Origin: Nocardioides marmoribigeumensis
Lineage (GTDB): Bacteria; Actinomycetota; Actinomycetes; Propionibacteriales; Nocardioidaceae
Direction of reading: 5' to 3'
Length of the DNA stretch: 64,000 bases
NCBI RefSeq assembly: GCF_031458325.1
Contig: NZ_JAVDYG010000001.1
Span: 3,038,001-3,102,000 of the forward strand
Each line of letters opens with the position of its first letter. Within the stretch, counting starts at the first letter, position 1. Position numbers and translations under genes: made by a program. The notes beneath the pieces were generated by a model. That model saw only the letters and a list, made by a program, of their open reading frames with translations. It was not told the DNA's origin and made no database searches. Below are positions 12,943-46,296 of the stretch, piece by piece.

Positions 12943-12960
12943 TGCAACCAGCCCCCGATC

Positions 12961-12993
12961 GTTGGTTGAGGTGCGAGCGAAGCGAGCCTCGAC
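12961..12993. repeat. Nocardioides-type intergenic repeat element
   Basis: This segment contains GAGG(T)GCGAGCGAAGCGAGC(CTC), with the inner direct repeat GCGAGC-GAA-GCGAGC flanked by GAGG/CCTC and preceded by GGTTGAGG. Similar 'GGTTGAG...CTCGACC' elements, in my recollection, are scattered between genes of Nocardioides and relatives. It lies in the divergent promoter region of the WYL and VWA genes, so it may be only a dispersed element or may influence promoter activity. Confidence 0.45.
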
Positions 12994-13081
12994 ATCTCTT
13001 AGACCCTTGTGTCGGACCCCTCCCGCACCCTTCCGTCACCGACCACACCAGGTCAACCGCACGACCACAAGGGGGACCCCC

Positions 13082-17743: not shown

Positions 17744-17783
17744 GTCGGTAGCGTTCTCGAACTGCCGTCCAGGGAGGTTGCTC

Positions 17784-21194: not shown

Positions 21195-21706
21195 TGGGAA
21201 CGAGTGGCTCAGGTCGTAGGACGCTGGTTGCTGTATTGAGTAATCCTCCGGTGACAGATGGTCAACGCACGCTGCGCCGCGTCGAGCTCGCCAGATCCAT
21301 CCTTGGCTTCGATGCGCACGCTGTTGTCAACATTTTCGCGATTCCATCGCACGCAACTGGAGCGCTCGGCACTCTCGGGGTGGCGGAATCAGGATGGATC
21401 GATGCCCGACGGGAGATGTGCGCTGGGCTTGCCGGCGCAAAAGGGGTGCTGCTCGGCTACGGATCGTCCCCGCCTTCCGGCGCAGCGCGCGCGCAGTTCC
21501 GCGGACAGGTCGATTGGCTGGCTAGTCAGCTGTCAGAGTTGGCCGTGCCCGTTTGGCAGTTTGGAGACGGTCCCAGACATCCGTCGCGATGGCAGCGCTG
21601 GACGCATCGCGCATATCCCGGGATCGGATTTGAGGAGGCGGTGAGGCGCAGCCTTGTCCTGGTTGATCCCGAATCAACCATTGGCGCCCACCAGGTTTTG
21701 ATTTGA
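21194..21706 (+). CDS. DUF1643-like protein
   Basis: A 170-aa protein whose ATG shares one base with the helicase stop. The N-terminus VAVLSNPPVTDGQRTLRRVE resembles the DUF1643 signature (MLNPS..D..T.RR). It is followed by AHAVVNIFAIPSHATGAL, VLLGYGSSPPSGAARAQF and a C-terminal segment near RHPSRW. DUF1643 is an uncharacterised family seen in phages and defence islands. Start overlap and same strand place it in the helicase-methyltransferase operon. Its role there is unknown; a nucleotide or base recognition role is only speculation. Confidence 0.75.
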   Translation: MGTSGSGRRTLVAVLSNPPVTDGQRTLRRVELARSILGFDAHAVVNIFAIPSHATGALGTLGVAESGWIDARREMCAGLAGAKGVLLGYGSSPPSGAARAQFRGQVDWLASQLSELAVPVWQFGDGPRHPSRWQRWTHRAYPGIGFEEAVRRSLVLVDPESTIGAHQVLI

Positions 21707-21764
21707 GGGTCGAAGAAGAGCCGCACGATCAGGGTCGAGGACGAGCAAAGGGACGAGGACGTCG

Positions 21765-26380: not shown

Positions 26381-29300
26381 CCGCGACCGCATCGACCGCA
26401 TGTTCCAGGTGCTCGCCCCGGCACTTGATGACTTCATCTCGACCGTCGTTGGGCAGGGCGACCCCGCCCTCGGCGCCGTCTGGACCAAGCTCGTGCAGGC
26501 GAAGGACAGTAAGAACGGCGCACCCTCGACGAAGACCTACGACGCGCTTGACCCCCAGGTGCAGTTCAGAATCCTTACCGAGGGCAACATTACCGCGGGC
26601 TTCAAACCGGGGTGGTACCCGTTCCACCAGGCCATAGGCCGCACTGGCGAGACCTTTGCCAGCGAGCTCCGCGAGGTCCGGAACGAGTGGGCGCACAACA
26701 AGACCTTCACCGACGACGACGCCTACCGAGCGCTCGACACCGGCGAACGACTGCTGAAGTTGATCGGTGCCGCCAAGGAAGCCGATGAGGTTCGCGGTAT
26801 CCGCCTAAATCTGCGCCGCGTCACTGCCGACAAGGACGACAAGAAGGTCCTGAAGGCTGCCGTTGACAATCCCGAAGCCGCAGGCCTCCGGCCCTGGCGC
26901 GAGGTCCTCCAGCCTCACGACGATGTCGCCACGGGCAACTTCCATGCCTCCGAGTTTGCTGCCGACCTCTACAAGGTCGCCACCGGTGGCGAGGTCGACT
27001 CCGACTACGCCGATCCCGTCGAGTTCTTTCGGCGTACCTATCTAACGGAAGGTCTCCGTGACCTGATCGGCCGTGCCGTCCGTCGGCTCGCAGGAGACGA
27101 CAACGCCTCGCCGGTCATCAATCTCCAGACAAACTTTGGCGGCGGCAAGACTCACTCGATGCTCTCGCTTTGGCACGTGGCAGCCGGGCTTCCTGTGGGC
27201 AACTTCCCGCAGGAGACCCAGGAACTCCTGAACGCGAGCGGCTACACCGGCACGAAGGTCAACCGTGTCGCCGTCGTCGGAAACCACTTCAGCCCGTCGG
27301 GCATGGCCAAGGACGACGGAACCTATGTCAACACCATCTGGGGCGAGCTTGCCTGGCAGCTCGGAGGTCCCGAGGCCTACGCGATTGTGGCCAAGGCCGA
27401 CCGGGACCGCACCCACCCCGGGGACGCTCTCCACGAGCTGCTCGCTAAGTACGCGCCCGCCGTCATCCTGATCGACGAATGGGTTGCGTACGCCCGCTCG
27501 CTCGTCGGCCGTGACGACCTGTCTGGGGGCACGTTCGACGACCAGTTCACCTTCGCCCAGTCGCTGACCGAGGCCGCCAAGGGCACTAAGGGCGTCCTGC
27601 TCGCCATCTCGATCCCGGCCTCGGAAACCGGCGACGCGACGGACAAGATCGTTGCAGGCAACGCCGAAGAGGTCGGTGGCCAGAACGGCCTGGAAGCTCT
27701 CAAGCGCCTCCAGAACGTGGTCCGCCGTGTCGCGGATCAATGGCGCCCCGCGTCGTCTGACGAGGCCTACCACATCGTCAAGCAACGGCTCTTCAAGCAG
27801 CCCGATGCCGCTGCGCTGGCAGCCATCGGCGCCACAGCTCGGACGTACGTGGAGATGTACCGCAAGTACTCCGACGACTTCCCGCGCGAAGCACGCGACA
27901 GTGCCTACGAGGACCGGATCAAGCGGACCTACCCGATCCACCCGGAGCTCTTCGACACCCTCTACGAGGAATGGTCGTCGCTAGAGCGCTTCCAGCGGAC
28001 TCGCGGTGTCCTCCGCCTGATGAGCACCGTCATCCACGCCCTGTGGACCGGAGAGGATCAGTCGCCGCTGATCATGCCCGGGTCCATCCCGCTGGCGACT
28101 TCGAACGTGAACGCCGAGCTCACGCAGTATCTGCAGGACTCCTGGAAGACGATCATTGATGCGGACGTCGACGGCCCCAAATCAGAGCCGGCCCGCATCG
28201 ATAAAGAGAAGCCGCTCTTTGGCCAGCGCGCGCTCACCAAACGTCTCGCTCGCACGGTGTTTTTCGGCGCTGCGCCGACGATTGCTCCCGGCTCTGTCCA
28301 CAAGGGGATCGGCACTCAGCGAGTGTTCCTCGGGACCGCGATCCCGGGCGATGTCCCGGGTAACTTCCACTCTGCCCTAACACAGCTGGGCGACCGCGCG
28401 ACGTACTTCTATTCGGGCTCCGGCAAGTACTGGTACGACGTCCAGCCCAACATCACCCGCACAGCCAAGGACCAGGCTGAGCGTCTCCATAAGGAAGACG
28501 TCTGGGCCGAGATTGTCCGACGGCTCCAGGATCAGGGCCGCAAGCGCGGTGACTTCGCGGGCGTGCACGTGTGCCCCGAGTCCAACGCCGACATCCCCGA
28601 TACCGACGAAGCTCGTCTCGTCATCCTGCACCCCAAGGTTGCGCATAAGCGTGGGGCAGAGTCGGCGGCCAAGGAGTTTGCTCACAAGGCGACCGAGCAC
28701 CGCGGCAGCTCGAACCGCACCCACCGCAATGCCTTGGTATTTCTCGCGGCTGATGAGGCTCGGCTCGAAGAACTAGATAACGCCACCCGCGACTACCTCG
28801 GCTGGAAGCACGTCTTGTCGAACGAAGCGGATCTCGACCTCACGCAGAACCAGAAGAATCAGGCATCGCAACGGGCGACTCAGGCCGACCAGACGGTCAC
28901 CTCGCGCTTGCTCCAAACGTTCACGTGGGCGCTCGTGCCGGCCCAGCCGGACCCGGGCGCGCCGTTCCTCATCCGGGAGACCAAGGTCGAGGGACAGTCA
29001 GACTCGCTGGCGGACAGGGTGTCTCGTCGGCTCGGGAATGACGGTGATCTGTCCACCCGACAGGCGGCGGCGACGATTCGGCTCGCCATCGGCAAGGTTC
29101 CCCAGATTTGGAAGGACGGCCACGTCTCCCTCGGCGCCTTGTGGGGCCTCTACAGCCAGTACCCATACATGCCCCGGCTCAGGGACCGGAGGGTGCTCAA
29201 CGAGGGCATCGTGGACCTGCCGATGCTGTGGCAAACCGATGCCTTCGCGTTGGCCGTCGGTTTCGACGAGGAGACCGGCCGCTACGTAGGTTTGTGGACT

Positions 29301-29702
29301 CCCGAAGACAAGGAGGCTGCGCCTGTCGCGAAGGACTCGCTCCTGCTCGTTCGTCCCGAAGTCGCGCAAAATCAGAAGCGGAACGAGCCGCGCACTGACC
29401 CCGACCCAGATCCGCGGCCGGATCATCCGGGTCCGAGGCCCGACACGCCCAAGCCTGTTGACATCGCCTGGACTCGTTTCTATGGCGTCAAGACGCTGAA
29501 CTCCGAGAAGATCGCGCTGGAGTTCAAGAATGTTGCTGACGAAGTGCTCGCTCATCTCCGCTCGGGAGAGAACACCCAGGTCACCGTTCGCATCGAGATT
29601 GAGGCAACTGACTCCTTGGGCTTCAGCGAGAGCCGGGTCCGCACGGTGTCGGAGAACGCCCGCACGCTGAAGTTCGACCAGTCCGGCTTCGAGAAGCAAT
29701 GA
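26367..29702 (+). CDS. HEPN (Swt1-type)-DUF499 ATPase fusion
   Basis: An 1111-aa protein. Residues 1-135 are a Swt1-like HEPN domain with the RX4H signature RNEWAH (R105, H110), the catalytic pattern of HEPN ribonucleases. From about residue 185 it is a DUF499 ATPase: Walker A NFGGGKTH (G258-K261) and Walker B VILIDEW (Asp 370), followed by the family's long C-terminal region. A proline/aspartate-rich linker (DPDPDPRPDHPGPRPDTPK) precedes a final domain of about 90 residues. DUF499 proteins travel with DUF1156 methyltransferases in defence loci. The gene overlaps DUF262 upstream and the coiled-coil gene downstream (ATGA). Confidence 0.9.
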   Translation: MALSNRDRIDRMFQVLAPALDDFISTVVGQGDPALGAVWTKLVQAKDSKNGAPSTKTYDALDPQVQFRILTEGNITAGFKPGWYPFHQAIGRTGETFASELREVRNEWAHNKTFTDDDAYRALDTGERLLKLIGAAKEADEVRGIRLNLRRVTADKDDKKVLKAAVDNPEAAGLRPWREVLQPHDDVATGNFHASEFAADLYKVATGGEVDSDYADPVEFFRRTYLTEGLRDLIGRAVRRLAGDDNASPVINLQTNFGGGKTHSMLSLWHVAAGLPVGNFPQETQELLNASGYTGTKVNRVAVVGNHFSPSGMAKDDGTYVNTIWGELAWQLGGPEAYAIVAKADRDRTHPGDALHELLAKYAPAVILIDEWVAYARSLVGRDDLSGGTFDDQFTFAQSLTEAAKGTKGVLLAISIPASETGDATDKIVAGNAEEVGGQNGLEALKRLQNVVRRVADQWRPASSDEAYHIVKQRLFKQPDAAALAAIGATARTYVEMYRKYSDDFPREARDSAYEDRIKRTYPIHPELFDTLYEEWSSLERFQRTRGVLRLMSTVIHALWTGEDQSPLIMPGSIPLATSNVNAELTQYLQDSWKTIIDADVDGPKSEPARIDKEKPLFGQRALTKRLARTVFFGAAPTIAPGSVHKGIGTQRVFLGTAIPGDVPGNFHSALTQLGDRATYFYSGSGKYWYDVQPNITRTAKDQAERLHKEDVWAEIVRRLQDQGRKRGDFAGVHVCPESNADIPDTDEARLVILHPKVAHKRGAESAAKEFAHKATEHRGSSNRTHRNALVFLAADEARLEELDNATRDYLGWKHVLSNEADLDLTQNQKNQASQRATQADQTVTSRLLQTFTWALVPAQPDPGAPFLIRETKVEGQSDSLADRVSRRLGNDGDLSTRQAAATIRLAIGKVPQIWKDGHVSLGALWGLYSQYPYMPRLRDRRVLNEGIVDLPMLWQTDAFALAVGFDEETGRYVGLWTPEDKEAAPVAKDSLLLVRPEVAQNQKRNEPRTDPDPDPRPDHPGPRPDTPKPVDIAWTRFYGVKTLNSEKIALEFKNVADEVLAHLRSGENTQVTVRIEIEATDSLGFSESRVRTVSENARTLKFDQSGFEKQ

Positions 29703-31573
29703 CCCTCGTCTATCGCTCGGTGTTCTCTGACGCGGACGGTCGCATCGTCGAGGCCGTGCTGCCCGCCTTCCGCTCGTGGTTGAGCTCGAAGGGTTTCAGT
29801 CCGCCCGAGGACGTTCCGGCGAGCGGGGTGGCCTTGGAGGCCGACGGCGGTGGCGACATGGCGTGGGTGGCCAGGTCCGCTCTCGACCTCCCGACAGGGG
29901 GAGTCCTGACGAGGCTCCGGCTGGTCGAGGAGTCGGAGTCGGCTCGCTGGGTCACGACTCTCGCCTGGACCAGCGAGTCCGACGGCAAGGAGGGTCGCCC
30001 CTGGGTATGGCTCGACCTCGAGCACGAACCAGTCGGCACCCAACCCCCGATCAGACCCGGTAGCCCGCGAGTTCTGCGTGACCTCCTAGCCGCTGGCGAA
30101 GCCTTTGATGACCAGGTGCCGCTGACAGCTGAGGCATGGACTGTCACAACTGGTCAGGTGGCTGAGCTCGGGCGCTACATCCTCTCGCCTACTCGTCAGA
30201 TCCCCATTGTTGTCTTCGCCCATGACGGACAGTCCGCCTACGACCAGGACCAGCTGGCCCGCCGGCTCGCTCGGGACTTAGCTGGCGTCGCTGCGGTGTT
30301 CATCTTGGCTAGCGGTGAGGCGACAGACCGGTTGGCTCAGTCTCTACCGCCGGACTACGCCGTCTACGGCGGGTCGCTGCGCACGTACCTCGCTGGTGTC
30401 GGCGGCGAGCACGATGTACCCCTGCGCCACAGGGTTCTGGGACGGGCAACTCTCAAGGCGCTCAAGGCGCGCGCCTTCCCCGCCGTCAAGGACCAGATCC
30501 TGGAGCTGTCGACACATCGGGCGGCGCCGCTCCGCCTCGTGAGCTCAGCGCAGCAAACGCAGCCCTCACCCCGCCCTGTCGAGTCCAGCCCATCAATCCC
30601 AACCAGTGCGCCGCCCCAGCCGGTCGTACCAAGCCAGGCTGATGTCGCGGACACCCTCTCGGTGCCCAAGCTCTGGTTCACGCAGCGTGTCGCCGCCATC
30701 CGCGAGGCGCTCGGCCGGCGGGCGTCGGCCACGACCGACGCTGGTGAGGTGGACGAGCTCGATCACGCGCTTTCCGAGCTCGTCGAGGTGGTGCGTTCCG
30801 GCTCCGCTCCGCCCATCGATCATGTGGGTGCCGCCTCCATTCAGCTCGAGGAAGTCCGTCGCGACCGTGAGCTACTGGATCAGCTGCTGTCCACTTCGCA
30901 GGACGAAGTCGACCAGCTGACGGCCGAGCTCGCCGACGCGCGCCGCCAGCTCGATGAGACGCTGTTGGAGGCGACCGAGGCCGCTGAACTGGCTGACCGA
31001 GCCGAGCGGCGGGCTCGCTGGCTCCTAAGAGGCCAGATCGAGTCCTCTGAGCAACAGACGCCGCTCGCTCTTCCCGATGCGCCTCCTTCGGTCGCGGAAG
31101 TCCTTCTGCTGGCCAGAGAGCACCTGAGCGAGCATCTGTGGGTGGGCGACACTGATGAGACCGCGGCGGAGCTGGACCTAGCAGGCGCCTCCCAGCTTTA
31201 TGCGATCAAAGCGTGGAGCGCGCTCATCGCTCTCGACGCCTACGCGCGAGCACGCTCAGAGGGACGCTTCTCCAACAACTTTTATGCGTGGTGCCAAGAC
31301 GTCCCGTCGGGAGAACCAGCGATCTCTGCCACCGCAGTCGCCCTAGTCGAAAGTGAAACGGTGGCCAATCGGCCCGACCTTCGCGACGCACGCACCTTCC
31401 GAGTGCCGACCGAGGTCGAGCCCGGCCAACGTCTCTACATGCCGGCGCACATCAAAGTCGTGAAACGAGGCTCGCCCTGCCCGCGTCTTCACTTCCATGA
31501 CGGCTCCGGCAAGACTGGCAAGGTCTACGTGGGGTATCTCGGAGAGCATCTTCCAACAGCCCGCTTTTCCTGA
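29699..31573 (+). CDS. coiled-coil protein of the defence operon
   Basis: A 624-aa protein overlapping the ATPase stop. Residues 1-290 form an unrecognised alpha/beta region (begins MTLVYRSVFSDADGRIVEAV). A proline/serine-rich linker follows at about 290-325. Residues about 390-450 are a coiled coil rich in Leu/Glu/Arg (VDQLTAELADARRQLDETLL). The end has a compact module (LYMPAHIKVVKRGSPCPRLH, then GKVYVGYLGEHL) resembling a short C-terminal domain I associate with proteins of bacterial defence islands. No catalytic motif is evident. It is the last gene of the coupled run and may act as a scaffold or trigger. A 50-bp gap separates it from the HelD-like gene. Confidence 0.8.
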   Translation: MTLVYRSVFSDADGRIVEAVLPAFRSWLSSKGFSPPEDVPASGVALEADGGGDMAWVARSALDLPTGGVLTRLRLVEESESARWVTTLAWTSESDGKEGRPWVWLDLEHEPVGTQPPIRPGSPRVLRDLLAAGEAFDDQVPLTAEAWTVTTGQVAELGRYILSPTRQIPIVVFAHDGQSAYDQDQLARRLARDLAGVAAVFILASGEATDRLAQSLPPDYAVYGGSLRTYLAGVGGEHDVPLRHRVLGRATLKALKARAFPAVKDQILELSTHRAAPLRLVSSAQQTQPSPRPVESSPSIPTSAPPQPVVPSQADVADTLSVPKLWFTQRVAAIREALGRRASATTDAGEVDELDHALSELVEVVRSGSAPPIDHVGAASIQLEEVRRDRELLDQLLSTSQDEVDQLTAELADARRQLDETLLEATEAAELADRAERRARWLLRGQIESSEQQTPLALPDAPPSVAEVLLLAREHLSEHLWVGDTDETAAELDLAGASQLYAIKAWSALIALDAYARARSEGRFSNNFYAWCQDVPSGEPAISATAVALVESETVANRPDLRDARTFRVPTEVEPGQRLYMPAHIKVVKRGSPCPRLHFHDGSGKTGKVYVGYLGEHLPTARFS

Positions 31574-35519: not shown

Positions 35520-38500
35520 ATGTTCCACCTCGACGACCAGGTCCACTGGAGTGCCTCGGACCTCACGGCGGCGGTGACGTGCGAGTACGCCCTCCTCAGG
35601 ACGCTGGACCACAAGCTCGGGCGGGCCGCGAAGGCTGAGGTACCAGCGGATCCGCTTCTCGACCACATCGCAGCCTTGGGGGACCTGCATGAGCAAAAGT
35701 GGCTGGCGGCGCTCGAGGCTGCGGGCCAAGTCATCGGCCTCGAGCCGGTGGTCTTGCCCTACACGGCGGCGAAGCTCGTCGCTGCTCGGAACGCCACGCT
35801 CGCCGCGTTCGAGGCTGAGCCGGAGATCGTCTACCAAGCTGCGTTCTTCGACGGCGAGTTCTTCGGCTACGCAGACTTCGTTCAGCGCAGTGACGACGGT
35901 TGGGTGGTCTGCGACGCCAAGTTGGCGCGCTCAGCGAAGCCGAATGCCTTGCTGCAGCTCGGGGCGTACGCCGACCAGATTCAGGCGCTCGGACTGAAGC
36001 TGGCTCCCGAGGTTTCGCTCCTCCTGGGAAATGGCGAGCGGACTGACTTTGCGGTGACCGACATCGTCCCCGTGTTCAAGGAGCGCCGCGCTCGACTCCG
36101 CGCCATCCTGAGCGAGCACCAGACCGAGGGCCAGCCGGTGATCTGGGGGGACGAGCGCTACCTCGCTTGTGGGCGGTGCCCGGAGTGCGCGGCTGCGATC
36201 AACTCAGCGGACGACCCCTTCTTGGTGGCCGGTCTACGCCTGGACCAGCGCACGAAGTTGAGGGCTGCCGGGATCCTGACGACCGCAGCTCTCGCGACCG
36301 CGGCAGAGAAGCCTGAAGCGATGGCGCAGGCCACTTTCGACAAGCTGCGCTCGCAGGCAGCGTTGCAGCGGAAGCAGTCTCAGGCGGGTCCCGACGGTCC
36401 GGTCGAGTACGAGCTCCTCGAGTCGGCGCCCACGATGCTCTCGCTGCTGCCCGCGCCCTCCGAGGGCGACCTCTTCTTTGATTTCGAGGGCGACCCACTC
36501 TACGACGAGGGCGACCTCAGCAAGCTCGGGCTGGAGTACCTCTGGGGCATCCTCGATGCCTCCGGCCACTACGTCCCGGTCTGGGCGCACACCTCGGCTG
36601 AGGAGAAGGCGGCGTTCGTCGCCTTCATGGAACTGGTCGTCCAGCGGCGCGCACAGTTCCCCGATCTGCACATCTACCACTACGCGCCCTACGAGACGAC
36701 GGCGCTCAAGCGCCTCGCGATGCGCTACCAGGTGATGGAGAAGGAGCTCGACGACCTGCTCCGGTCGGAGGTCTTCGTGGACCTGTATGCGACTGTGCGC
36801 GGAAGCGTCCGCGTCGGCCAGCCGTCGTACAGCATCAAGAAGCTGGAGCCGCTCTATATGGGCGACGAACTCCGCTCGGACGACGACGATGCGGTGGGCG
36901 ACGGCGGAGCCTCGGTTGTGGCTTATCACGAGTATCGCGAGTGGGTCGGGTCGGACCCCGAGGGGGCAGCCAACCGACTTGAGGCGCTCGCGGACTACAA
37001 CGAGTACGACTGCCTCTCGACGCTGCGGCTGCGCGACTGGCTGCTGCAGCGCGCCGACGAAGCGGGCGTTCGCGACCAGATCGTCCCTCGGATCAAGGAC
37101 ATCCAGGGCGAGGAGCTCGTCGCCGGAGGCGATCCCTTGTTCGTCGACTTGATGGCACGATCCGGACCTGAGCTGCCTGCGAAGCGCACGCCCGAGGAGC
37201 AGGTCTACGCCATGCTCGCGACGGCGCTGGGCTATCACCAGCGGGAGTCCAAGCAGCAGTGGTGGGAGCACTTTGAGCGTCTGTCGAACCCGCTCAGCGA
37301 GTGGCAGTCCGCACGTGACGTGTTCATCGTGGAATCGGCGGAGGTCGTCGAAGACTGGACCCTGCCCGGTGGGACAGCGAAGAACGAGCGCCGCATCGTC
37401 CGCCTGGTTGGTGACTGGATGCCGGGGAGCAAGCCGGGCTCACAGGCGCGCGTCGCCTACCGCACCCCGGCCCCGCCAGGTTCCTACGGACCGGACGGGG
37501 CGCCCCACGCCGCTGCCGATTGCAGCGCGCTCGCCCTGGACGACGACGATCCTCGGGTCGTGCTCCTGACGGAGTCGAGGGAGCCGTCGGACACCTTCGA
37601 GGACCTGCCAGTTGCCCTGGTCCCTGCTGCGCCGCCGCGGACCGCCTGGCTCGAGGCAGCCAGCCGGGAGATTGGCATTGCTGCCAAAGGCGCCGGCTCG
37701 CTGCCTGGGAGCGCTGTGCTCGACCTCATGGCGCGGCGCTCTCCGCGACTCAGTTCAGCTGGTGCGCTACCCGCGAGCGGGATCGCTAGGGATGACGTGG
37801 TGGCCGCGTTGACGGACATGACCGACTCCTATGTCGCGATTCAGGGACCGCCGGGTACCGGGAAGACCTACACCGGTTCGCGCGTCGTCAAGGAGCTCGT
37901 CGAGCGCCACGGCTGGCGGGTCGGGGTCGTCGCGCAGTCTCACGCCGTCGTCGAGCACATGCTCGGGGCGATCGTGAAGGCCGGCGTCGATGCCACGCTC
38001 GTGGGAAAGGCGAAGACCAAGAGCAAGAACCCGACCTGGACCCCCCTGAGCAACGTGTCGAAGTTCCTGAAGGACCATGCCGCCTCCGGCTGCGTGGTCG
38101 GCGGGACTGCCTGGGACTTCGCCAATCCCAACACGGTCCCGCGCGGAACCCTGGACCTGCTTGTGATTGATGAAGCCGGCCAGTTCTCCCTGGCGTTCAC
38201 CCTCGGAGCATCGGTCGCGGCTCAGCGCCTGCTCCTGCTGGGCGACCCTCAGCAACTTCCTCAGGTCAGCCAGGGAACCCACGCCGAGCCGGTCGACGAG
38301 TCTGCGCTCGGGTGGCTGATGAACGGACACGACACGATTCCGAGTGGGTTGGGCTATTTCCTCGGCGAGACGTTCCGTATGCACCCAGCACTGTCGGCGA
38401 AGGTCTCGGCCCTGTCGTACGACGGGCGGCTTCAGTCGGCTGATTGCGCGTCGGATCGCACGCTCGACGGGACCGAGCCGGGGTTGACCGTGGTCGAGGT

Positions 38501-38972
38501 GGACCACACCGGCAACAGAGTCGAGTCGGTCGAGGAGGCTGCTGAGGTTGTCCGCCAAGTCCAGGCTCACCTGGGACGGAGCTGGTCGGACCCGGCCGAT
38601 GGCGATGCTCCGCGGCCGCTCAGGGAGGCCGACATTCTCGTCGTCGCGCCCTACAACGCACAGGTGGCTTGCGTCCGAGACGCCCTCCGAAGCGCGGGTT
38701 TCGATGGTGTGCGGGTCGGGACGGTCGACAAGTTCCAGGGGCAGGAAGCGCCGGTCGCGATCGTAACGATGACGGCCTCGTCCCACGGTGACGTACCGCG
38801 AGGAATGGGCTTTCTATTGAGTCGGAACCGGGTGAATGTCGCGGTGTCGCGCGCGCAGTGGAAGGCCATCATGATCAGGTCGTCGTTGCTGACCTCCTTC
38901 ATGCCTTCCAGTGTTCACGGTCTGCTCGAGTTGGGGGCTTTCATCGGTCTGTGTGCAGACCGGCCTCAATGA
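35520..38972 (+). CDS. TM0106-type RecB-like nuclease fused to SF1 helicase
   Basis: An 1150-aa protein. Residues 1-190 are a RecB-family PD-(D/E)XK nuclease (DLTAAVTCEYALLRTLDHK, LGDLHEQKWLAALEAAG, YADFVQRSDDGWVVCDAKLA), with a cysteine cluster around CGRCPEC (about 220) as in Fe-S or zinc-bound RecB-like enzymes. Residues about 315-500 look like an RNase H-fold exonuclease segment (LFFDFEGDPLYDEGDLSKLG). The C-terminal 380 residues are a Dna2/Upf1-like helicase: GPPGTGKT (from residue 776), LLVIDEAGQFSLA, LLLGDPQQLPQVSQG, TVDKFQGQEAP, and NRVNVAVSRAQWKAIM. It probably degrades or processes invading or damaged DNA. Confidence 0.93.
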   Translation: MFHLDDQVHWSASDLTAAVTCEYALLRTLDHKLGRAAKAEVPADPLLDHIAALGDLHEQKWLAALEAAGQVIGLEPVVLPYTAAKLVAARNATLAAFEAEPEIVYQAAFFDGEFFGYADFVQRSDDGWVVCDAKLARSAKPNALLQLGAYADQIQALGLKLAPEVSLLLGNGERTDFAVTDIVPVFKERRARLRAILSEHQTEGQPVIWGDERYLACGRCPECAAAINSADDPFLVAGLRLDQRTKLRAAGILTTAALATAAEKPEAMAQATFDKLRSQAALQRKQSQAGPDGPVEYELLESAPTMLSLLPAPSEGDLFFDFEGDPLYDEGDLSKLGLEYLWGILDASGHYVPVWAHTSAEEKAAFVAFMELVVQRRAQFPDLHIYHYAPYETTALKRLAMRYQVMEKELDDLLRSEVFVDLYATVRGSVRVGQPSYSIKKLEPLYMGDELRSDDDDAVGDGGASVVAYHEYREWVGSDPEGAANRLEALADYNEYDCLSTLRLRDWLLQRADEAGVRDQIVPRIKDIQGEELVAGGDPLFVDLMARSGPELPAKRTPEEQVYAMLATALGYHQRESKQQWWEHFERLSNPLSEWQSARDVFIVESAEVVEDWTLPGGTAKNERRIVRLVGDWMPGSKPGSQARVAYRTPAPPGSYGPDGAPHAAADCSALALDDDDPRVVLLTESREPSDTFEDLPVALVPAAPPRTAWLEAASREIGIAAKGAGSLPGSAVLDLMARRSPRLSSAGALPASGIARDDVVAALTDMTDSYVAIQGPPGTGKTYTGSRVVKELVERHGWRVGVVAQSHAVVEHMLGAIVKAGVDATLVGKAKTKSKNPTWTPLSNVSKFLKDHAASGCVVGGTAWDFANPNTVPRGTLDLLVIDEAGQFSLAFTLGASVAAQRLLLLGDPQQLPQVSQGTHAEPVDESALGWLMNGHDTIPSGLGYFLGETFRMHPALSAKVSALSYDGRLQSADCASDRTLDGTEPGLTVVEVDHTGNRVESVEEAAEVVRQVQAHLGRSWSDPADGDAPRPLREADILVVAPYNAQVACVRDALRSAGFDGVRVGTVDKFQGQEAPVAIVTMTASSHGDVPRGMGFLLSRNRVNVAVSRAQWKAIMIRSSLLTSFMPSSVHGLLELGAFIGLCADRPQ

Positions 38973-39132: not shown

Positions 39133-39201
39133 GTGGCCGACGAGGGCAGTGCGCGCAAGAACAAGACATTGAGACGCTTCAACGGGGCGGAAGCGAGATG
39201 A
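39133..39201 (+). CDS. possible 22-aa leader peptide coupled to the hydrolase
   Basis: GTG 39133 is preceded by GAAGAAGGGTGGGGG. The frame encodes 22 residues with many Arg/Lys (ARKNKTLRRFNGAEAR at the end) and stops at TGA 39199-39201, overlapping the ATG of the hydrolase as ATGA. This spacing fits translational coupling. It could be a leader peptide or simply chance, and no homologue is recognised. Confidence 0.35.
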   Translation: MADEGSARKNKTLRRFNGAEAR

Positions 39202-41150
39202 CCGGACAGACACAGACCCTCGTCTTCGTGCACGGCGTGGGCGGCATGATCTCCCGTGAGAATTGGCTCGGGCCGCTCAGCGAGTCCATGGTCCGCGCCG
39301 GACACTCCCGACCGGAGAAGTCCGGGATCAAGATCATGTCGATCCGGTATCAGAACAGCCTGACCGAGCCGACCGACGGCAAGCCGCCGGCAGAGACCTG
39401 GCACGGACGATCGGACGCGGCGGCCCACGCCGACTTCCAGCGAGGGCGACACTCGGCCGAACGACTGCTCGTCCAGCATCGCTACGACCCGCCGTTGTTC
39501 GGCCTGGAGGATCTGCAGCCGGGTGCACCGCTCCTGGCGGGGGCTGTCGAGAAGCTGTCGCGCTTGCTGCGTGAGGAGGCGCGCCGTTATCGCACGGACG
39601 CCCGCGCGCGGGCGAGTGTCGGACGTTCTGTGGTGGGACAGCTGCCGGACCAGGGCCGGGCGGTCATCGTCGCCCACAGCCTCGGCTCGGTCGTGATGCT
39701 GGACCTGCTCAAGAAGCTCCCGCCCGACCTCACCGTCGACCGGCTCATCACGATCGGGAGCCCGCTTTCGTTGGCGAGCTTCTGGCCGTTCATCAAGCCG
39801 GGTGGGGACTTTCCGCACGATCGGGTGAAGTCCTGGGTCAACGTCTTCGATTCCCTCGATCCGGTGAGCGGTGGTCTCGGCGTGGCCCACCTCCATCCTG
39901 AAGCCGTCGACGCGGCCGTTCACGTGGGCAGCCTGCACCGGCTGGTCAGCAACCACGCGGCGAGTGCCTACCTGTCGCTGCCGGTGCTGGGCGCGTTGGT
40001 CGGCGACGCGCTGTACGGCGTCCCAACGCCGAAAGCATCCACCTCCGACTCGTTGCCCGACCGAGTTCGGGGATCCGCCTGGATGCCCTTCCTCCTGGCC
40101 TCGGCCTATGCCCGTCAGCTCTCCCTGACGTGCGGCGACCGCAGGACACGGTGGCGCGGTCGCTTCGACACGGCGCGGTCGACGTCGGTGCGTCGGCTCC
40201 TCGACGGCGTAAATGACCAGGTGCTCGAGCAGCCCGACGCGCACCCAGTACCCACCGAGAGTGACTTCCTTGACCACGCTGCCCACCTGGTGGAGGGGCA
40301 GTGGGACGACCAGGAGCTCGTCCCCCTCGTGATCGGCCTGCTGCTGGGGTCGCCTGTGCCGCCGTTCCGTCTCGACATTCATCGGGACCATCAGGGCGAG
40401 GCGCTCGTTTCCCTGCTCAACCGGGTCCGCCGGCGAGGCAGCGACCTCAGCGACCAGCGCTTTGCGACAGCACTGCTGGAGTCGCTCGAGGACGCCAAGG
40501 ACGCCCTTGGTGACTCCTCGCTCCGAGGGTTCCTGCTTCTGGGCGGAGCGCTGGTTCTCGCCGCGACCGGGGTCGGCGTCATGGCTGCGGCGCCCACGGG
40601 GCTGGCCGGCGCCGCACTCCTGACCTCGACGCTGGCCAGCTTCGGTCCGGGCGGGATGGTGGGCGGCATGATCACGATCGCCGCGGCCTCCGGGGCTGGC
40701 TCCGCCCTGGTCGGCGCGGGCATTGCCGCGTCTGGCGCCGAGCAGGCAGCGGAGATGCGCGCCTTCGTCCGCTTCGCCGAGCAGCTCGCCCAGCAGAGCC
40801 CCGAGCGCTTGGCCTCCGCGATGCGCGGTGTCCTCGCTACCGTGCTCGTGCAGGAGCGTCTACGGATGCCCTCCAAGGCCGATCAACTCAGGCAGGTCGT
40901 GACCCAGGCCCTCGCCAGCGTGGTCAACGAGCAGAACCTGCACCACGAGCTCCGGTCGCGCGAGGCGACCGAGTGGGAGGCCCGGCGCAAGATCCTGCTG
41001 CGGGGACTCGAGTTTCTCGACCGTCGCTTCCCGAGTCCGGGTCGGGACCTGGTCGTGCGAGCGGTGACGAAGGAGTCCGGTGAGCTCACGCTCAGTGCGA
41101 AGGAGCGCCAGGCACTGCCCCACGTGGATCGCCCTGCGATCTCATCATAG
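39198..41150 (+). CDS. membrane-associated alpha/beta serine hydrolase (PGAP1-like)
   Basis: A 650-aa protein. Residues 1-270 form an alpha/beta hydrolase domain: VFVHGVGG near the N-terminus for the oxyanion hole, the nucleophile elbow VAHSLGS (Ser about 159), and LITIGSPLSL after it, typical of PGAP1/lipase-like hydrolases. Residues about 440-510 are highly hydrophobic and Ala/Gly-rich (GGALVLAATGVGVMAAAPTG, MVGGMITIAAASGAGSALVG), suggesting one or two membrane hairpins. The C-terminal part is helical and charged. ATG 39198 has AAGCGAG ahead and overlaps a small upstream frame. Function may be lipid or ester hydrolysis. Hydrolase-plus-membrane segment proteins occur as phospholipase effectors in defence, but this is only inference. 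Confidence 0.8.
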   Translation: MTGQTQTLVFVHGVGGMISRENWLGPLSESMVRAGHSRPEKSGIKIMSIRYQNSLTEPTDGKPPAETWHGRSDAAAHADFQRGRHSAERLLVQHRYDPPLFGLEDLQPGAPLLAGAVEKLSRLLREEARRYRTDARARASVGRSVVGQLPDQGRAVIVAHSLGSVVMLDLLKKLPPDLTVDRLITIGSPLSLASFWPFIKPGGDFPHDRVKSWVNVFDSLDPVSGGLGVAHLHPEAVDAAVHVGSLHRLVSNHAASAYLSLPVLGALVGDALYGVPTPKASTSDSLPDRVRGSAWMPFLLASAYARQLSLTCGDRRTRWRGRFDTARSTSVRRLLDGVNDQVLEQPDAHPVPTESDFLDHAAHLVEGQWDDQELVPLVIGLLLGSPVPPFRLDIHRDHQGEALVSLLNRVRRRGSDLSDQRFATALLESLEDAKDALGDSSLRGFLLLGGALVLAATGVGVMAAAPTGLAGAALLTSTLASFGPGGMVGGMITIAAASGAGSALVGAGIAASGAEQAAEMRAFVRFAEQLAQQSPERLASAMRGVLATVLVQERLRMPSKADQLRQVVTQALASVVNEQNLHHELRSREATEWEARRKILLRGLEFLDRRFPSPGRDLVVRAVTKESGELTLSAKERQALPHVDRPAISS

Positions 41151-41215: not shown

Positions 41216-42163
41216 ATGAACGACAACACTAGTGAGACCAACCGCCGCGACGCCGAGCTCGACGAGCTGTGGAACCAGCTAGAGGCCGGGCTCTCGGCGT
41301 ACCTGGTCCGCATGACCGACCCCGATGAGCAGGACCACCTGCTGCTCGAGGTGCCTGACCCGTACGACGACGGGTGCGGCTGCCCGCCCTACGCCCAGTT
41401 CGCGGCGTTCGGCGACGGGCTGATGGTGCGGGCCGAGATCTCCGGCAACGCCTACCTCCGGCCGCAGTTCCACCTCGACCGTGCCGGTCAGGCGGTGCTG
41501 ACGGGCTTCGGCTGGCTCGGCCACGACGAGGGGGAGCCCAACTGGTTCGTCGAGGTCGAGCTCGGCGGCGTCGAGGCGGTGGCCAGCCAGGTTGTGACGA
41601 TGCTGCGCGACCACTTCGGCGTGGCGCACCCTCAGCTGCTCACCCACCAGGCGTGGGGGCCGGCGGCGGAGCACGTCGACCTGCTCGGGCTCTGCGCGAC
41701 CGGCGATGTGCCCGAGGAGACGGTCGCGACGCCCGCTGTGGTCTCCGCGGACGCTGTCTTCCCGGACGGCCCGGCCGAGCTCAATGCGCTCGTCGCCGAG
41801 GTGCTCCGCGCGAAGTACCAGGCGGAGCCGAAGGCCGACGACGACGGCGACTTCGTCATCCCGCACCTCGGGCAGCCGGTGTTCGTCCGTGCTCGGGACG
41901 AGCAGCCGGCCGTCGAGGTCATCGCTCGGGTGGCGCATGGCGCCTACTCCCGGCGAACGGCGGCCGTCGAGGTCGGGCTGCTCAACCGTGACCACGGCTG
42001 GGTGAGGTGGGAGCTGCACGACCGCGACGTCTTCCTGCGGCTGCTCATCCCGGCCATGCCGTTCGTGCCGAGGCACCTCGACGACCTGCTCGACGTCTTC
42101 CTCGAGAAGCTCTCCGAGACGCGCGACGACCTCGCCCTCCGACTGCGGGCGAAGGTCGCCTGA
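41216..42163 (+). CDS. YbjN/TY-Chap-like protein with two related domains
   Basis: A 315-aa protein with GAAGGGGGG ahead of ATG 41216. Two domains of similar type: residues about 15-140 (LSAYLVRMTDPDEQDHLLLE, GCPPYAQFAAFGDGLMVRAE) and about 180-310 (LGQPVFVRARDEQPAVEVIA, LIPAMPFVPRHLDDLLDVF). The second resembles the YbjN/type III chaperone-like fold that is abundant in actinobacteria under names such as TY-Chap. Such domains bind partner proteins. It directly precedes the ADP-ribosylglycohydrolase (stop and start within 2 bp), so it may be a chaperone or substrate adaptor for that enzyme. This role is inferred from context. Confidence 0.78.
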   Translation: MNDNTSETNRRDAELDELWNQLEAGLSAYLVRMTDPDEQDHLLLEVPDPYDDGCGCPPYAQFAAFGDGLMVRAEISGNAYLRPQFHLDRAGQAVLTGFGWLGHDEGEPNWFVEVELGGVEAVASQVVTMLRDHFGVAHPQLLTHQAWGPAAEHVDLLGLCATGDVPEETVATPAVVSADAVFPDGPAELNALVAEVLRAKYQAEPKADDDGDFVIPHLGQPVFVRARDEQPAVEVIARVAHGAYSRRTAAVEVGLLNRDHGWVRWELHDRDVFLRLLIPAMPFVPRHLDDLLDVFLEKLSETRDDLALRLRAKVA

Positions 42164-42164
42164 G

Positions 42165-43652
42165 GTGCGGCTCACCACGGCCCAGATCGACCGGGCCTGC
42201 GGCGCCGTCCTCGGCTCGGCTGTCGGAGACGCACTCGGGGCGGGCTACGAGTTCGGGTCGGCCACTGTCGGTCCTGACGGTCCGCAGATGATCGGCGGGG
42301 GACTCGGCAACTTCGAAGCGGGGGAGTGGACCGACGACACCACCATGGCGTGGTGCATCCTCGATGTCGCCGCCACCGGTGCCGACCTGCGCAGCGAGGA
42401 CGCGCTCACCCAGGTCGGCAGACGCTTCCGCGGCTGGTACGACACGCACCCGCCCGACATCGGCAACCAGACCCGGACGATCCTCGGCCAGGTCGGCCCC
42501 GAGCCGACGGGCGCGACGCTGACCGCGGCGGCCCACGATCTCCACGCTCGGACCGGCCACACGGCCGGCAACGGCTCGCTGATGCGGACCGCCCCGGTGG
42601 CCCTGCGCTACCTCGAGGACCCGGTCGGGTTGACGGAGGCGGCACGCAGGATCGGAGCGCTGACGCACTACGACCAGCGCGCCCAGGAGGCATGCGTGTT
42701 GTGGTCGCTGGCGATCCGGCACGCGATCCTCCACGGCGAGCTCGACGTCCGCGTCGGGTTCAAGCACCTGGACGAGGACGCCGTGGCGTTCTGGGAGGAG
42801 CACCTTCGCGCTGCTGAGACGCGCGAGCCCAGCACCTTCGTGCCCAACGGGTGGGTCGTCACAGCCCTGCAAGCGGCCTGGTCCGCCATCGCACAGAGCT
42901 CGACCACCGGGGGAGCCAAGGACTGCGCGCACCTGGTCGACGCGCTCGACACCGCCATCCGGATCGGCGACGACACTGACACGGTCGCGGCGATCGCAGG
43001 CGGGCTGCTCGGCGCCCGCTGGGGCGCCTCGGCCGTGCCCGCGCGGTGGCGCCGGGTGCTCCACGGCTACCCCGGGATCACCGGTGATCGCCTGGTCGAG
43101 CTGGCTCACCTGGCCGCCACCGGTCGTCCTGGGAAGCACGGGTGGCCGGGTGTCGCACGGGTCGACTACTCGCCGTACGTCTGGAGCCCAACCCTCGTGC
43201 GTCACCCGTACGACGACGGCGTGTGGCTGGGTGACGCTCTCGCGCTGGACGACCTGTCGCCAGACGTGACCGCGGTGGTGAGCCTCTGCCTCCTCGGCAG
43301 CGAGCAGGTCCCGCCGGACATCGAGCACATCGGGTTCCGGCTGATCGACGAGGCTGACCCGGCCTCGAACCCCAACCTCGACTTCGTGCTTCGCGACACC
43401 GCCGAAACCGTCGCAGCGCTGAGGGCGGAGGGTCACGTCGTGCTGCTGCACTGTGTCGCAGCCCAGAGCCGTACGCCGACGGTCGCGATCGCCTACGCGG
43501 TGCATCAGGGCGCGTCGCTCGAGAAGGCCGCGCATGCGGTGCTCCAGGCGCTTCCGAGGTCTCGCCCCAATCTCGGGTTCCGGGCAGCGCTCGGCCGGAT
43601 GGAGTCGTATGTTCGGAGCTCAGACGAGCGCAGACACTCGGGGGACGCGTGA
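42165..43652 (+). CDS. ADP-ribosylglycohydrolase fused to dual-specificity-type phosphatase
   Basis: A 495-aa protein from GTG 42165. The N-terminal 300 residues are a DraG/ARH-like ADP-ribosylglycohydrolase: GDALGAGYE (21-29), the metal-binding WTDDT (55-59) and a second metal motif GDDTDTVAAIAGGLLGARWG. Residues about 320-480 form a cysteine-phosphatase domain with the P-loop HCVAAQSRT (Cys 430). The enzyme could remove ADP-ribose from protein or nucleic acid and also dephosphorylate a substrate such as a phosphorylated ribose or protein. It is coupled to the YbjN-like gene (2-bp gap) and to the NERD helicase (GTGA overlap). Confidence 0.92.
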   Translation: MRLTTAQIDRACGAVLGSAVGDALGAGYEFGSATVGPDGPQMIGGGLGNFEAGEWTDDTTMAWCILDVAATGADLRSEDALTQVGRRFRGWYDTHPPDIGNQTRTILGQVGPEPTGATLTAAAHDLHARTGHTAGNGSLMRTAPVALRYLEDPVGLTEAARRIGALTHYDQRAQEACVLWSLAIRHAILHGELDVRVGFKHLDEDAVAFWEEHLRAAETREPSTFVPNGWVVTALQAAWSAIAQSSTTGGAKDCAHLVDALDTAIRIGDDTDTVAAIAGGLLGARWGASAVPARWRRVLHGYPGITGDRLVELAHLAATGRPGKHGWPGVARVDYSPYVWSPTLVRHPYDDGVWLGDALALDDLSPDVTAVVSLCLLGSEQVPPDIEHIGFRLIDEADPASNPNLDFVLRDTAETVAALRAEGHVVLLHCVAAQSRTPTVAIAYAVHQGASLEKAAHAVLQALPRSRPNLGFRAALGRMESYVRSSDERRHSGDA

Positions 43653-45295
43653 CGATCGACCTGGCCTTCGGACCGAAGCTGCTGGACGACACTCCGGCCT
43701 TCGCCAACGGGGCCGAGCGGGTGGTGTGGCAGGCCCTGCGCGACCAGCTGGGGCCCGACGACGTGCTCGGCGCCGGAGTGCGGTTCACCCACCAGGGTCA
43801 CGACCGCGAGGTCGACCTGCTCGTCGGGATCGCCGGGGCCGGCGTCACGACCGTCGAGGTCAAGGGCGGGTCCGTCTGGCTCGAGGGCGGCGACTGGTGC
43901 ATGCGCCGCGGCGGGGAGGTCGTCACGGTCGACCCGGTCGGGCAGGCCCGCAACGGCAAGTACGCGCTGCGCGACTACGTCAACGCCGATCCCCGCTGGC
44001 AGCGGCGCCGGATGCGGATGGCCCACGCCGTCGCGCTGCCGCACACTGACGTGCCGGCGGACTTCGCCACGCCGGACTGCCCGCGCGACTCGGTGTTCGG
44101 ACGGGGAGACCTCGACGGCCTGGTCGACGGGTTGCGGTGCCTGCTCGACCAGCAGACCGGTCACCCACCCACCAGCGCCGCCGACCTCGCCGTCCTCGCC
44201 GACGTCCTCGGTGGCCGCTTCCTGCCGCAAGCCACCCTGCTCGCCGAGGCCTACGAGCGCGAGGACGACGCCCAGCACCTGACCGAGCAGCAGGCGATGA
44301 TCCTGGACGCGATCCGTCACCTCAACCGTGTGGAGGTCCGCGGGGGAGCGGGCAGCGGCAAGACGTGGCTCGCGATCGAGCAGGCGCGACGGCTGGCGGC
44401 GCAGGGGCAGCGAGTGGCGCTGGTCTGCTACTCACGCGGGCTGGCGTCGTACTTCCACCGTCGCGTGGCGACCTTCAGGAGCCACCGCCACCGCCCGGCG
44501 TACGTCGGGCTCTTCCACGGGCTCGGGGAGCACTGGGGCGCCCGGCTGCCCGAGTCCACCGACGACCGCGAGGGCTGGGAGGTCCGGCTCCCGGCCGAGA
44601 TGACCCGCCTCGCGGAGGACCTGCCGGAGAACCACCGCTTCGACGCCGTCGTGGTTGACGAGGCGCAGGACTTCTCCGACACCTGGTGGCCGGCCCTCCT
44701 CAGCGCTCTCAGGACCGAGGAGTCGGGGATCTACGTCTTCTCCGACGAGAGCCAGCGGGTGTTCGCCCGGTTCGGCGGACCGCAGGTCTCCCTGCTCCCG
44801 CTCATGCTCGACGCCAACCTCCGCAACACCAAGCAGATCGGCCAGACCTTCACCGACCTGGCGCCCTTCCGCATGCGCCTGCGTGGTGGCGACGGGCCGG
44901 ACGTGCGCTTCCTGCCGTGCTCGGCGGACGAGGCCCTCGACCTCGCCGACGAGGCCGTCGACGACCTGCTCGACGACTGGCGCCCGGAGGACGTCGCGCT
45001 GCTCACCACCGGCAGCCGTCACCCCGAGCAGAAGGCGAGACAGGAGCGCGGACAGGACCACTACTGGGAGTCGTTCTGGGACGAGGACCAGGTCTTCTAC
45101 GGCCACGTCCTCGGGTTCAAGGGGCTCGAGCGGCGCGTGGTCGTCCTGGCGGTCAACGACACCCACCTCGAGCGGGCCCGCGAGCGCCTGTACGTCGGGC
45201 TGTCGCGCGCCCGCGACCAGCTGGTCGTGTGCGGCGATCCCGACTACATCCGGGAGGTCGGCGGGGAGTCGCTGTGGCGGACGCTGCAGGCCTGA
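43649..45295 (+). CDS. NERD-domain nuclease fused to UvrD-like helicase
   Basis: A 548-aa protein from GTG 43649, overlapping the phosphatase stop. Residues 20-120 are a NERD (nuclease-related) domain with the PD-(D/E)XK-like set Asp 56 and EVK (70-72). The helicase part has GGAGSGKT, VVDEAQDFSDTWW, and a C-terminal half with FYGHVLGFKGLERRVVVLAV and LYVGLSRARDQLVVCG, characteristic of superfamily 1A. It likely processes DNA, and NERD helicases recur in defence islands. It closes the operon that contains the ADP-ribosylglycohydrolase-phosphatase. Confidence 0.92.
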   Translation: MTIDLAFGPKLLDDTPAFANGAERVVWQALRDQLGPDDVLGAGVRFTHQGHDREVDLLVGIAGAGVTTVEVKGGSVWLEGGDWCMRRGGEVVTVDPVGQARNGKYALRDYVNADPRWQRRRMRMAHAVALPHTDVPADFATPDCPRDSVFGRGDLDGLVDGLRCLLDQQTGHPPTSAADLAVLADVLGGRFLPQATLLAEAYEREDDAQHLTEQQAMILDAIRHLNRVEVRGGAGSGKTWLAIEQARRLAAQGQRVALVCYSRGLASYFHRRVATFRSHRHRPAYVGLFHGLGEHWGARLPESTDDREGWEVRLPAEMTRLAEDLPENHRFDAVVVDEAQDFSDTWWPALLSALRTEESGIYVFSDESQRVFARFGGPQVSLLPLMLDANLRNTKQIGQTFTDLAPFRMRLRGGDGPDVRFLPCSADEALDLADEAVDDLLDDWRPEDVALLTTGSRHPEQKARQERGQDHYWESFWDEDQVFYGHVLGFKGLERRVVVLAVNDTHLERARERLYVGLSRARDQLVVCGDPDYIREVGGESLWRTLQA

Positions 45296-45444: not shown

Positions 45445-46296
45445 TCAGTCGCAGCTGTCGCAGATCCCCGTCGCGGGGAGCGCCATCTGGCACGTCGGGC
45501 AGAGGGTGGCGGCCTTCTCGGCGTGGTACTTCTTGCGCGCCCGGGCGCGGGAGGCGGTGAGCTTGTCGGTGAGCGCGCGGTGGCCGCCGTTGCTGGGCAG
45601 GCCTGCCGCGTCGCACTGCTGGTAGCACTTCAGCCGCTCGTCGGCCGCGTGGACGTCGGGGTCGGCGGGACGTTGGCCGGTGACGGTGAGGACCGTCTCG
45701 GCGTAGTCCGTGCCGACGCTGCCGTCGGTGTTGATGCACAGCGCCGACAGCAGCGGCTCGTCGCGCTCCGCGCAGTCGCGTGCGACACGGGCGAGGACGG
45801 AGCCCATCCAGTGGTGGGCGGGCTTGGAGGTCCGGATGCCGCTGCGTCGCTGGACGGCGGTCGCGAGGTCCTTGGTCGAGATGACCGCGTGGTAGGTCTT
45901 CGCCGTCTCGAGCAGCTCCTCGCGGGCCGCCAGCGCCCAGGCGGCGTGCGAGTCCTCCGTGCCGACGTCCGTGGACTCCTGCCACGAGCCGGTCGCGGAC
46001 TCCCCGCGGCGCAGGTCCTCGACAGTCATGACCTCGAAGCCGAGATCGACCAGGATCTTGGCCGCCGCGTCCTTGCTGCCCGAGAGGTCGGACGAGGTCG
46101 CGGGACGGCCCTCGGCGTGCTTGAGCGCCACGCCCAGCACCGCCTTGGAGTCGTAGGTCCGGCCCTCGTGGACCACGACGTAGTCGCGTGACGGGCCGAA
46201 CCCGTAGCGGTTCAGGAACGAGGTCGCGCCGCGTGCGTCGTACTCCTGCATCGCCAGGTGGACATGGTCAGCCGTGACGGCATCGAAGAGGGGCAC
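45445..46296 (-). CDS. ScoMcrA-head-like domain protein with C-terminal zinc ribbon
   Basis: A 283-aa protein from GTG 46296. The first 95 residues match the N-terminal head domain known from the type IV endonuclease ScoMcrA (LFDAVTADHVHLAMQEYDAR, FLNRYGFGPSRDYVVVHEGR, YDSKAVLGVALKHAEG). The middle is helical without SRA or HNH motifs (AHHWMGSVLARVARDCAERD). The C-terminus is a zinc ribbon (CPTCQMALPATGICDSC). Unlike ScoMcrA it therefore has no visible nuclease or sulfur-binding domain, so it is a different member of the family, possibly a specificity or regulatory protein. It is followed at 10 bp by a 36-aa zinc-ribbon gene. Confidence 0.83.
   Translation of the reverse strand: MPLFDAVTADHVHLAMQEYDARGATSFLNRYGFGPSRDYVVVHEGRTYDSKAVLGVALKHAEGRPATSSDLSGSKDAAAKILVDLGFEVMTVEDLRRGESATGSWQESTDVGTEDSHAAWALAAREELLETAKTYHAVISTKDLATAVQRRSGIRTSKPAHHWMGSVLARVARDCAERDEPLLSALCINTDGSVGTDYAETVLTVTGQRPADPDVHAADERLKCYQQCDAAGLPSNGGHRALTDKLTASRARARKKYHAEKAATLCPTCQMALPATGICDSCD

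Follow-up and report, generated by a model that had tools for sequence, protein, structure and literature searches.

An operon encoding a TY-Chap chaperone, an ADP-ribosylglycohydrolase-phosphatase fusion and a NERD nuclease-helicase in Nocardioides marmoribigeumensis: a candidate system against foreign ADP-ribosylation

The best explanation for a three-gene operon in Nocardioides marmoribigeumensis is that it encodes an ARG-centric host system, which would reverse ADP-ribosylation by a foreign, most likely phage, ADP-ribosyltransferase (ART). We rate this reading somewhat above even, and within it we infer which substrate is used, in what order the steps run, that the modification comes from a foreign source and that there is an anti-phage effect. 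The operon occupies positions 41216-45295 of a 64,000-nucleotide stretch of contig NZ_JAVDYG010000001.1 (positions 3,038,001 to 3,102,000), hereafter called the window. ARG-centric systems have been predicted in silico to counter viral ADP-ribosylation (PMC9503650, section 3.8, Fig. 7). In the published description, a phosphatase is fused or adjacent in a little over 55% of systems, the peptide-binding chaperone gene is TY-Chap1/2/3, SseB or vWA, and a Nudix or WYL regulator is present in over 42% but is not obligatory. These systems lack a genomically coupled ART or sirtuin, and their nuclease/helicase effector is variable (PMC9503650). An earlier note on this DNA had proposed a module against ADP-ribosylating enzymes, possibly from phages, which is the same idea as the published prediction. 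Its term "counter-defence," in contrast, placed the operon on the wrong side, as the operon is a host locus on the chromosome, within a defence island, and the phage homologues possess only the ADP-ribosylglycohydrolase (ARH) domain. The operon and the main features around it are listed below by window position.

7943-9442: SIR2-like protein, N-terminal region without an assigned family, 33 kb upstream of the operon
12046-14347: WYL-WCX regulator (12046-12942, - strand) and vWA protein (+ strand), Pfam, about 27-29 kb upstream of the operon
17778-31573: complete Hma defence system (PADLOC, E 0 to 4.8e-266), with HmaA at 17778-21194, HmaB at 21765-24524 and HmaC at 26367-29702
35520-38972, + strand: TM0106-type RecB nuclease and AAA helicase (TIGR03491, 5.5e-46)
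39198-41150, + strand: alpha/beta-hydrolase-like protein (AHSLGS motif), no Pfam family, 65 bp before the operon
41216-42163, + strand: TY-Chap3 and TY-Chap1 (YbjN/type III secretion chaperone-like) protein, 315 aa (Pfam)
42165-43652, + strand: fusion of ARH and DSP-type cysteine phosphatase, 495 aa (Pfam, PDB relatives, AlphaFold2/Foldseek)
43449-43472, + strand: phosphatase signature H429-C430-VAAQS-R436 (alignment of relatives)
43649-45295, + strand: NERD-type PD-(D/E)XK nuclease and UvrD-like SF1 helicase, 548 aa (PADLOC, aligned relatives)
45445-46296: McrA-head-like protein, convergent with the operon (PADLOC mREase_IV, 3.4e-08)

The three co-directional open reading frames of the operon were also picked by a codon-usage gene caller. 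They are considered real genes and not chance reading frames because they are conserved at such distances, with 44-72% identity for the helicase. A single base separates the first two genes (TGA-g-GTG, position 42164), and the second and third share a four-base GTGA overlap, so that translational coupling is likely. The earlier note had given this overlap exactly, and its three-gene structure, domain identities and Cys430 were likewise borne out by the reading-frame check, gene caller, Pfam and PADLOC; its 2-bp gap at the first junction was wrong. None of the genes looks degenerate, and the active-site motifs are all complete and kept among relatives.

The central protein combines ADP_ribosyl_GH (PF03747, 5.5e-51, residues about 1-313) with a DSPc domain (PF00782, 2.3e-07, residues about 345-480) that scores 31.1 bits against a Pfam cut-off of 33.5. 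In alignments, the DDT and D-T-D-T motifs for metal binding by the ARH domain are kept in at least 52 of 54 relatives, and the four motif Asp residues are invariant in all 54 ARH domains. Within the phosphatase loop, H429-C430-V-A-A-Q-S-R436, all 43 relatives keep the H, C and R. The candidate general acid, the first Asp of DEADP, is found in 40 of these 43 domains, and where classical DSPs have a glycine in the loop, this group has Ala or Gly. When searched alone, the phosphatase domain matches the solved DUSP-family structures DUSP28 and DUSP22 by sequence (best E 1.1e-08), while the PDB relatives of the ARH part are DraG, Tri1 and ARH3. An AlphaFold2 model of the fusion based on eight sequences (pLDDT 85.1, pTM 0.88) retrieved the Thermus ARH, Tri1, DraG and ARH3 in Foldseek. 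The fusion is predicted to act on an ADP-ribosylated substrate. It has the ARH fold and metal motifs in common with DraG and with the ART-ARH toxin/immunity pairs (Tre1/Tri1; Listeria ART-ARH, 8za7). In contrast to these, it has no cognate ART of the DarT or KptA families alongside, carries a fused phosphatase and scores far below the curated cut-offs of the Tri1 model (102.9 against 490) and the DraG model (95 against 337).

The combination of ARH and phosphatase, described in the earlier note as uncommon, is not so, because it has many relatives on chromosomes and plasmids. The fusion is present in about 44 actinobacterial genomes and also on plasmids, where at least 20 records align to at least 90% of the protein. 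Matches were obtained in 48 of 149 related genomes, about 20 of them near full length, and in 73 of 395 genomes of the class at 1e-30. Within 6 kb of the 43 other fusion loci, counts that are lower bounds since some loci are incomplete, a Nudix (NrtR-like) regulator occurs in at least 26, usually divergent, followed by TY-Chap1 (at least 14), NERD-helicase (at least 11), ARPP (at least 8), SIR2 (at least 6) and vWA (at least 5). The vWA genes lie near the ARH in L037, L043, L049, L053 and L054, and L043 has a WYL-WCX regulator near its ARH as well. A Pfam tally of the 108 nearest neighbours, unselected by family, is led by NrtR_WHD, TY-Chap1, TY-Chap3, NUDIX, NERD and ARPP-1. These neighbour families reproduce the published parts list, which argues for the ARG-centric reading.

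The chaperone protein matches TY-Chap3 (PF22552, 1.6e-24) and TY-Chap1 (PF22551, 2.9e-26), of the YbjN/type III secretion chaperone fold; NCBIfam and PHROGs gave no match, nor did solved structures with the protein as a single sequence. In a tree of 33 TY-Chaps, the window's copy forms a clade with those of G081, G462, G010, Metallococcus and two Gordonia (support 99/99), and six of the seven members stand 23-26 bp upstream of an ARH gene. As read from this tree, the TY-Chap has evolved together with its ARH. Because the window's chaperone sits in this ARH-adjacent clade, the ARH and chaperone are regarded as the core of the system and the nuclease-helicase as an attached effector. NERD-helicases of the same bacterial family mostly have a different TY-Chap upstream, sometimes with a Chap-C domain. 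Moreover, G003, a member of the same genus, possesses the RecB-AAA, TY-Chap, NERD-helicase and McrA-head genes in the window's order without the ARH, and its ARH-phosphatase stands 61 kb off. Together these two observations suggest that an ARH/chaperone cassette occupies the former place of the NERD-helicase's own chaperone.

The third protein has UvrD-type helicase matches in Pfam and matches RTasNERD-Hel (1.5e-36) and C3a187 NERD+UvrD (1.4e-19) in PADLOC. NERD (PF08378) was not called by Pfam in the window's own protein but was called in 15 of 16 aligned sequences. The NERD residues E...E.D...EVK...Q, the Walker A motif and DEAQD are kept in 28-31 of 31 relatives, most of them in all 31. As a single sequence, the protein matched no solved structure, and a profile search got no further than helicase IV and GajB. 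Its architecture of NERD plus SF1 helicase is that of the RTasNERD-Hel and C3a187 defence-island helicases. Unlike in RTasNERD-Hel, there is no reverse transcriptase among the PADLOC matches listed for genes 17778-46296, and the partner here is TY-Chap/ARH.

Linkage of the NERD-helicase to the ARH recurs. Both genes occur in 28 genomes, and in 12 of these the fusion and the NERD-helicase are at most 10 kb apart. Leaving out the window's genome, the count is 11 of 27 against 0.15 expected (P about 2e-18), a value that assumes uniform placement, ignores the clustering of defence genes in islands and is corrected only partly by the single control family, N6_Mtase (PF02384), for which a comparison of positions by hand gave no case within 10 kb of the fusion (0 of 17 other genomes). 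In G247 (L079), from another family, the ARH is followed by the NERD-helicase with a four-base overlap; in G322 the two are convergent and 76 bp apart; G084 and G131 have the order ARH-TY-Chap-NERD on one strand. G462 has TY-Chap, ARH, a small gene and the NERD-helicase behind RecB-AAA and McrBC genes. As for gene order, whose uniqueness to this genome the earlier note would have counted against its proposal, the exact three-gene adjacency is indeed unique to the window's genome among those searched, with a partial match in G462, but adjacency of ARH-phosphatase and TY-Chap and proximity of ARH and NERD-helicase both recur. In G081 (L043), the gene directly behind the ARH-phosphatase encodes a TM0106 RecB-type nuclease/AAA helicase, and on a Pimelobacter plasmid the fusion is followed by a gene for a TM0106 RecB-like nuclease. 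Together with G247, these cases are consistent with an exchangeable nuclease slot behind the ARH. In G462 (L078:10584-12651), a C-terminal domain of about 190 aa without a Pfam match replaces the phosphatase of the ARH protein; this domain apparently occurs a second time, as the small gene that precedes the NERD-helicase.

The window is a defence island. Besides the systems listed above, it contains a UvrD-like helicase and an HNH protein, and a gene with a GmrSD_N domain is inserted between HmaB and HmaC. A McrA-head-like gene also stands behind the NERD-helicase of G003 (L041). Relatives of the alpha/beta-hydrolase-like protein occur beside a NERD-helicase in L088 and near an ARH in L031; the linkage of the window's copy to the operon is uncertain. 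No Nudix or WYL regulator adjoins the operon, the nearest WYL being about 29 kb away and the nearest NrtR-like homologue in the genome 1.3 Mb off (32% identity). Neither DarT nor a KptA/Tpt1 homologue was found when the genome was searched for these two ART families, and it therefore has no cognate endogenous ART of either. The same result led us to reject DarTG or a comparable ART-immunity pair. An ARPP search of the genome returned nothing, but control genomes were equally empty, so that this negative does not speak for the absence of ARPP. Gabija was set aside, with no GajA (OLD-family nuclease) among the PADLOC matches listed for genes 17778-46296 and a GajB similarity of the helicase that is weak (1.6e-08 over 54 residues). 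A DRT with NERD-helicase was likewise rejected, as no reverse transcriptase stands among the same listed matches.

Compared with the published ARG-centric systems (PMC9503650), the operon possesses an ARH/ARG domain fused to a cysteine phosphatase of the rhodanese-phosphatase superfamily with intact catalytic motifs, a TY-Chap1/TY-Chap3 gene and a restriction-endonuclease-fold nuclease with helicase in the same operon. As to coupled ARTs or sirtuins, the genome search covered the DarT and KptA families and found neither, while a SIR2 gene lies 33 kb upstream. The operon differs in that the window has neither an adjacent Nudix/WYL regulator nor ARPP, the NERD-helicase is joined by a four-base overlap, and SIR2 is linked in relatives. 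The ARG-centric reading is favoured by the genome's lack of DarT and KptA, the defence island, the pairing of TY-Chap with ARH and the co-location of ARH and NERD-helicase. Against it stand the missing adjacent regulator, the SIR2 linkage and an exact order that is only partly found elsewhere. In the proposed mechanism, the TY-Chap protein would bind ADP-ribosylated client proteins, and the ARH domain would use its metal pair to hydrolyse the ADP-ribose bond. Phosphate might then be stripped by the fused cysteine phosphatase, either from the ADP-ribose derivative set free or from the exposed end of the target. As an attached effector, the NERD-nuclease/helicase would form a second line and degrade foreign nucleic acid.

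The linkage to SIR2 raises the possibility that the fusion instead degrades free ADP-ribose derivatives that arise when defence proteins of the SIR2 or TIR type consume NAD+. The substrates would include cADPR-type signals, O-acetyl-ADPr and ADPr-1''-phosphate, and the outcome would be cell recovery or quenching of the signal. SIR2 lies within about 6.5 kb of the ARH-phosphatase in six of the nine other genomes having it, and two of these neighbours match ThsA models. In addition, the Nudix/NrtR-type regulators found near the fusion in at least 26 of 43 loci belong to a class that senses ADP-ribose (PMC9503650), and in G048 (L051:5557-6729) a gene for a NadR-like NMN-adenylyltransferase/kinase overlaps the ARH-phosphatase gene by four bases. 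However, most loci lack SIR2, the window's own copy is 33 kb distant, and a NadR-like neighbour turned up at a single one of about 44 loci. Protein clients are what the TY-Chap chaperones suggest, and a metabolite function leaves no role for the NERD-helicase, so we regard it as unlikely. A small chance is given to the repair of nucleic-acid ends, where the ARH would first free a phosphorylated end of RNA or DNA from its ADP-ribose, the phosphatase would remove the exposed phosphate and the NERD-helicase would deal with the damaged strand. In vitro, the Streptomyces ARH-like protein SCO5809 takes ADP-ribose off RNA ends that bear a 5'- or 3'-phosphate (PMC11833690), and the adjoining gene here is a nuclease-helicase. 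The Deinococcus radiodurans operon DRB0098-0100 likewise joins an ADP-ribose hydrolase to phosphatase activity, but its hydrolase is a macrodomain PARG accompanied by a ligase and an end-processing kinase-phosphatase, with no chaperone and no nuclease-helicase (PMC11833690). Neither ligase nor kinase is found in our operon or among the recurrent neighbours of the 108-gene Pfam tally, the best phosphatase matches are protein-type DUSPs, and TY-Chap again points to proteins. The earlier note had taken the helicase-nuclease as pointing to a nucleic acid substrate. This is unsupported. As a variable partner, which elsewhere stands without ARH and beside its own TY-Chap, the NERD-helicase is weak evidence on the ARH substrate.

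It is distinctly unlikely that the operon represents two separate systems, in which the chaperone-ARH-phosphatase cassette was inserted before the helicase of a TY-Chap/NERD-helicase system and the genes came to adjoin so closely by chance as the island was put together. In its favour, a NERD-helicase in the same family is generally preceded at short distance by a TY-Chap of its own, in some cases with a Chap-C domain, and by no ARH (L041, L044, L058-L061, L063-L066, L069), and G003 keeps the window's order without the ARH. Against an accident, ARH and NERD-helicase recur together in unrelated families, with the independent overlap in G247, the convergent pair in G322 and the one-strand order in G084 and G131. 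An improbable variant is that the chaperone-ARH-phosphatase senses phage ADP-ribosylation, and that the processed product or bound client switches on the NERD nuclease-helicase. If true, this would be an immune system triggered by ADP-ribosylation itself and not a repair operon with a passenger nuclease.

Returning to the ARG-centric reading, candidates for the bacterial reversal of phage ADP-ribosylation exist so far only in silico; no experimental test of the prediction was found in the literature searched, nor any relevant TY-Chap literature besides PMC9503650. A compact operon from a complete genome, with hydrolase and phosphatase in one chain and the nuclease-helicase coupled to them, provides a convenient test case. 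The statistics for NERD-helicase and SIR2 add two partners to the published core, and their recurrent coupling is a modest addition to an already predicted system.

A TY-Chap, in some cases with Chap-C, lies immediately 5' of the NERD-helicase, mostly without ARH, in L044:7950-10929, L046:5537-8639, L061, L064 and others. This arrangement, present in many genomes of that bacterial family, is a candidate defence pair of two genes, and no description of it was found in the literature. A search of viral contigs returned no relative of the NERD-helicase and, for the fusion, two distant loci with ARH only; these results give no support to the idea that the operon came from a phage. Eleven Streptomyces phages, among them MN224565.1 (50923-51891), encode an ARH domain that shares about 38-46% identity with that of the window and lacks the phosphatase. 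These domains could serve the phages against host ARTs, and in one case the ARH-only gene lies near a SprT-like protease.
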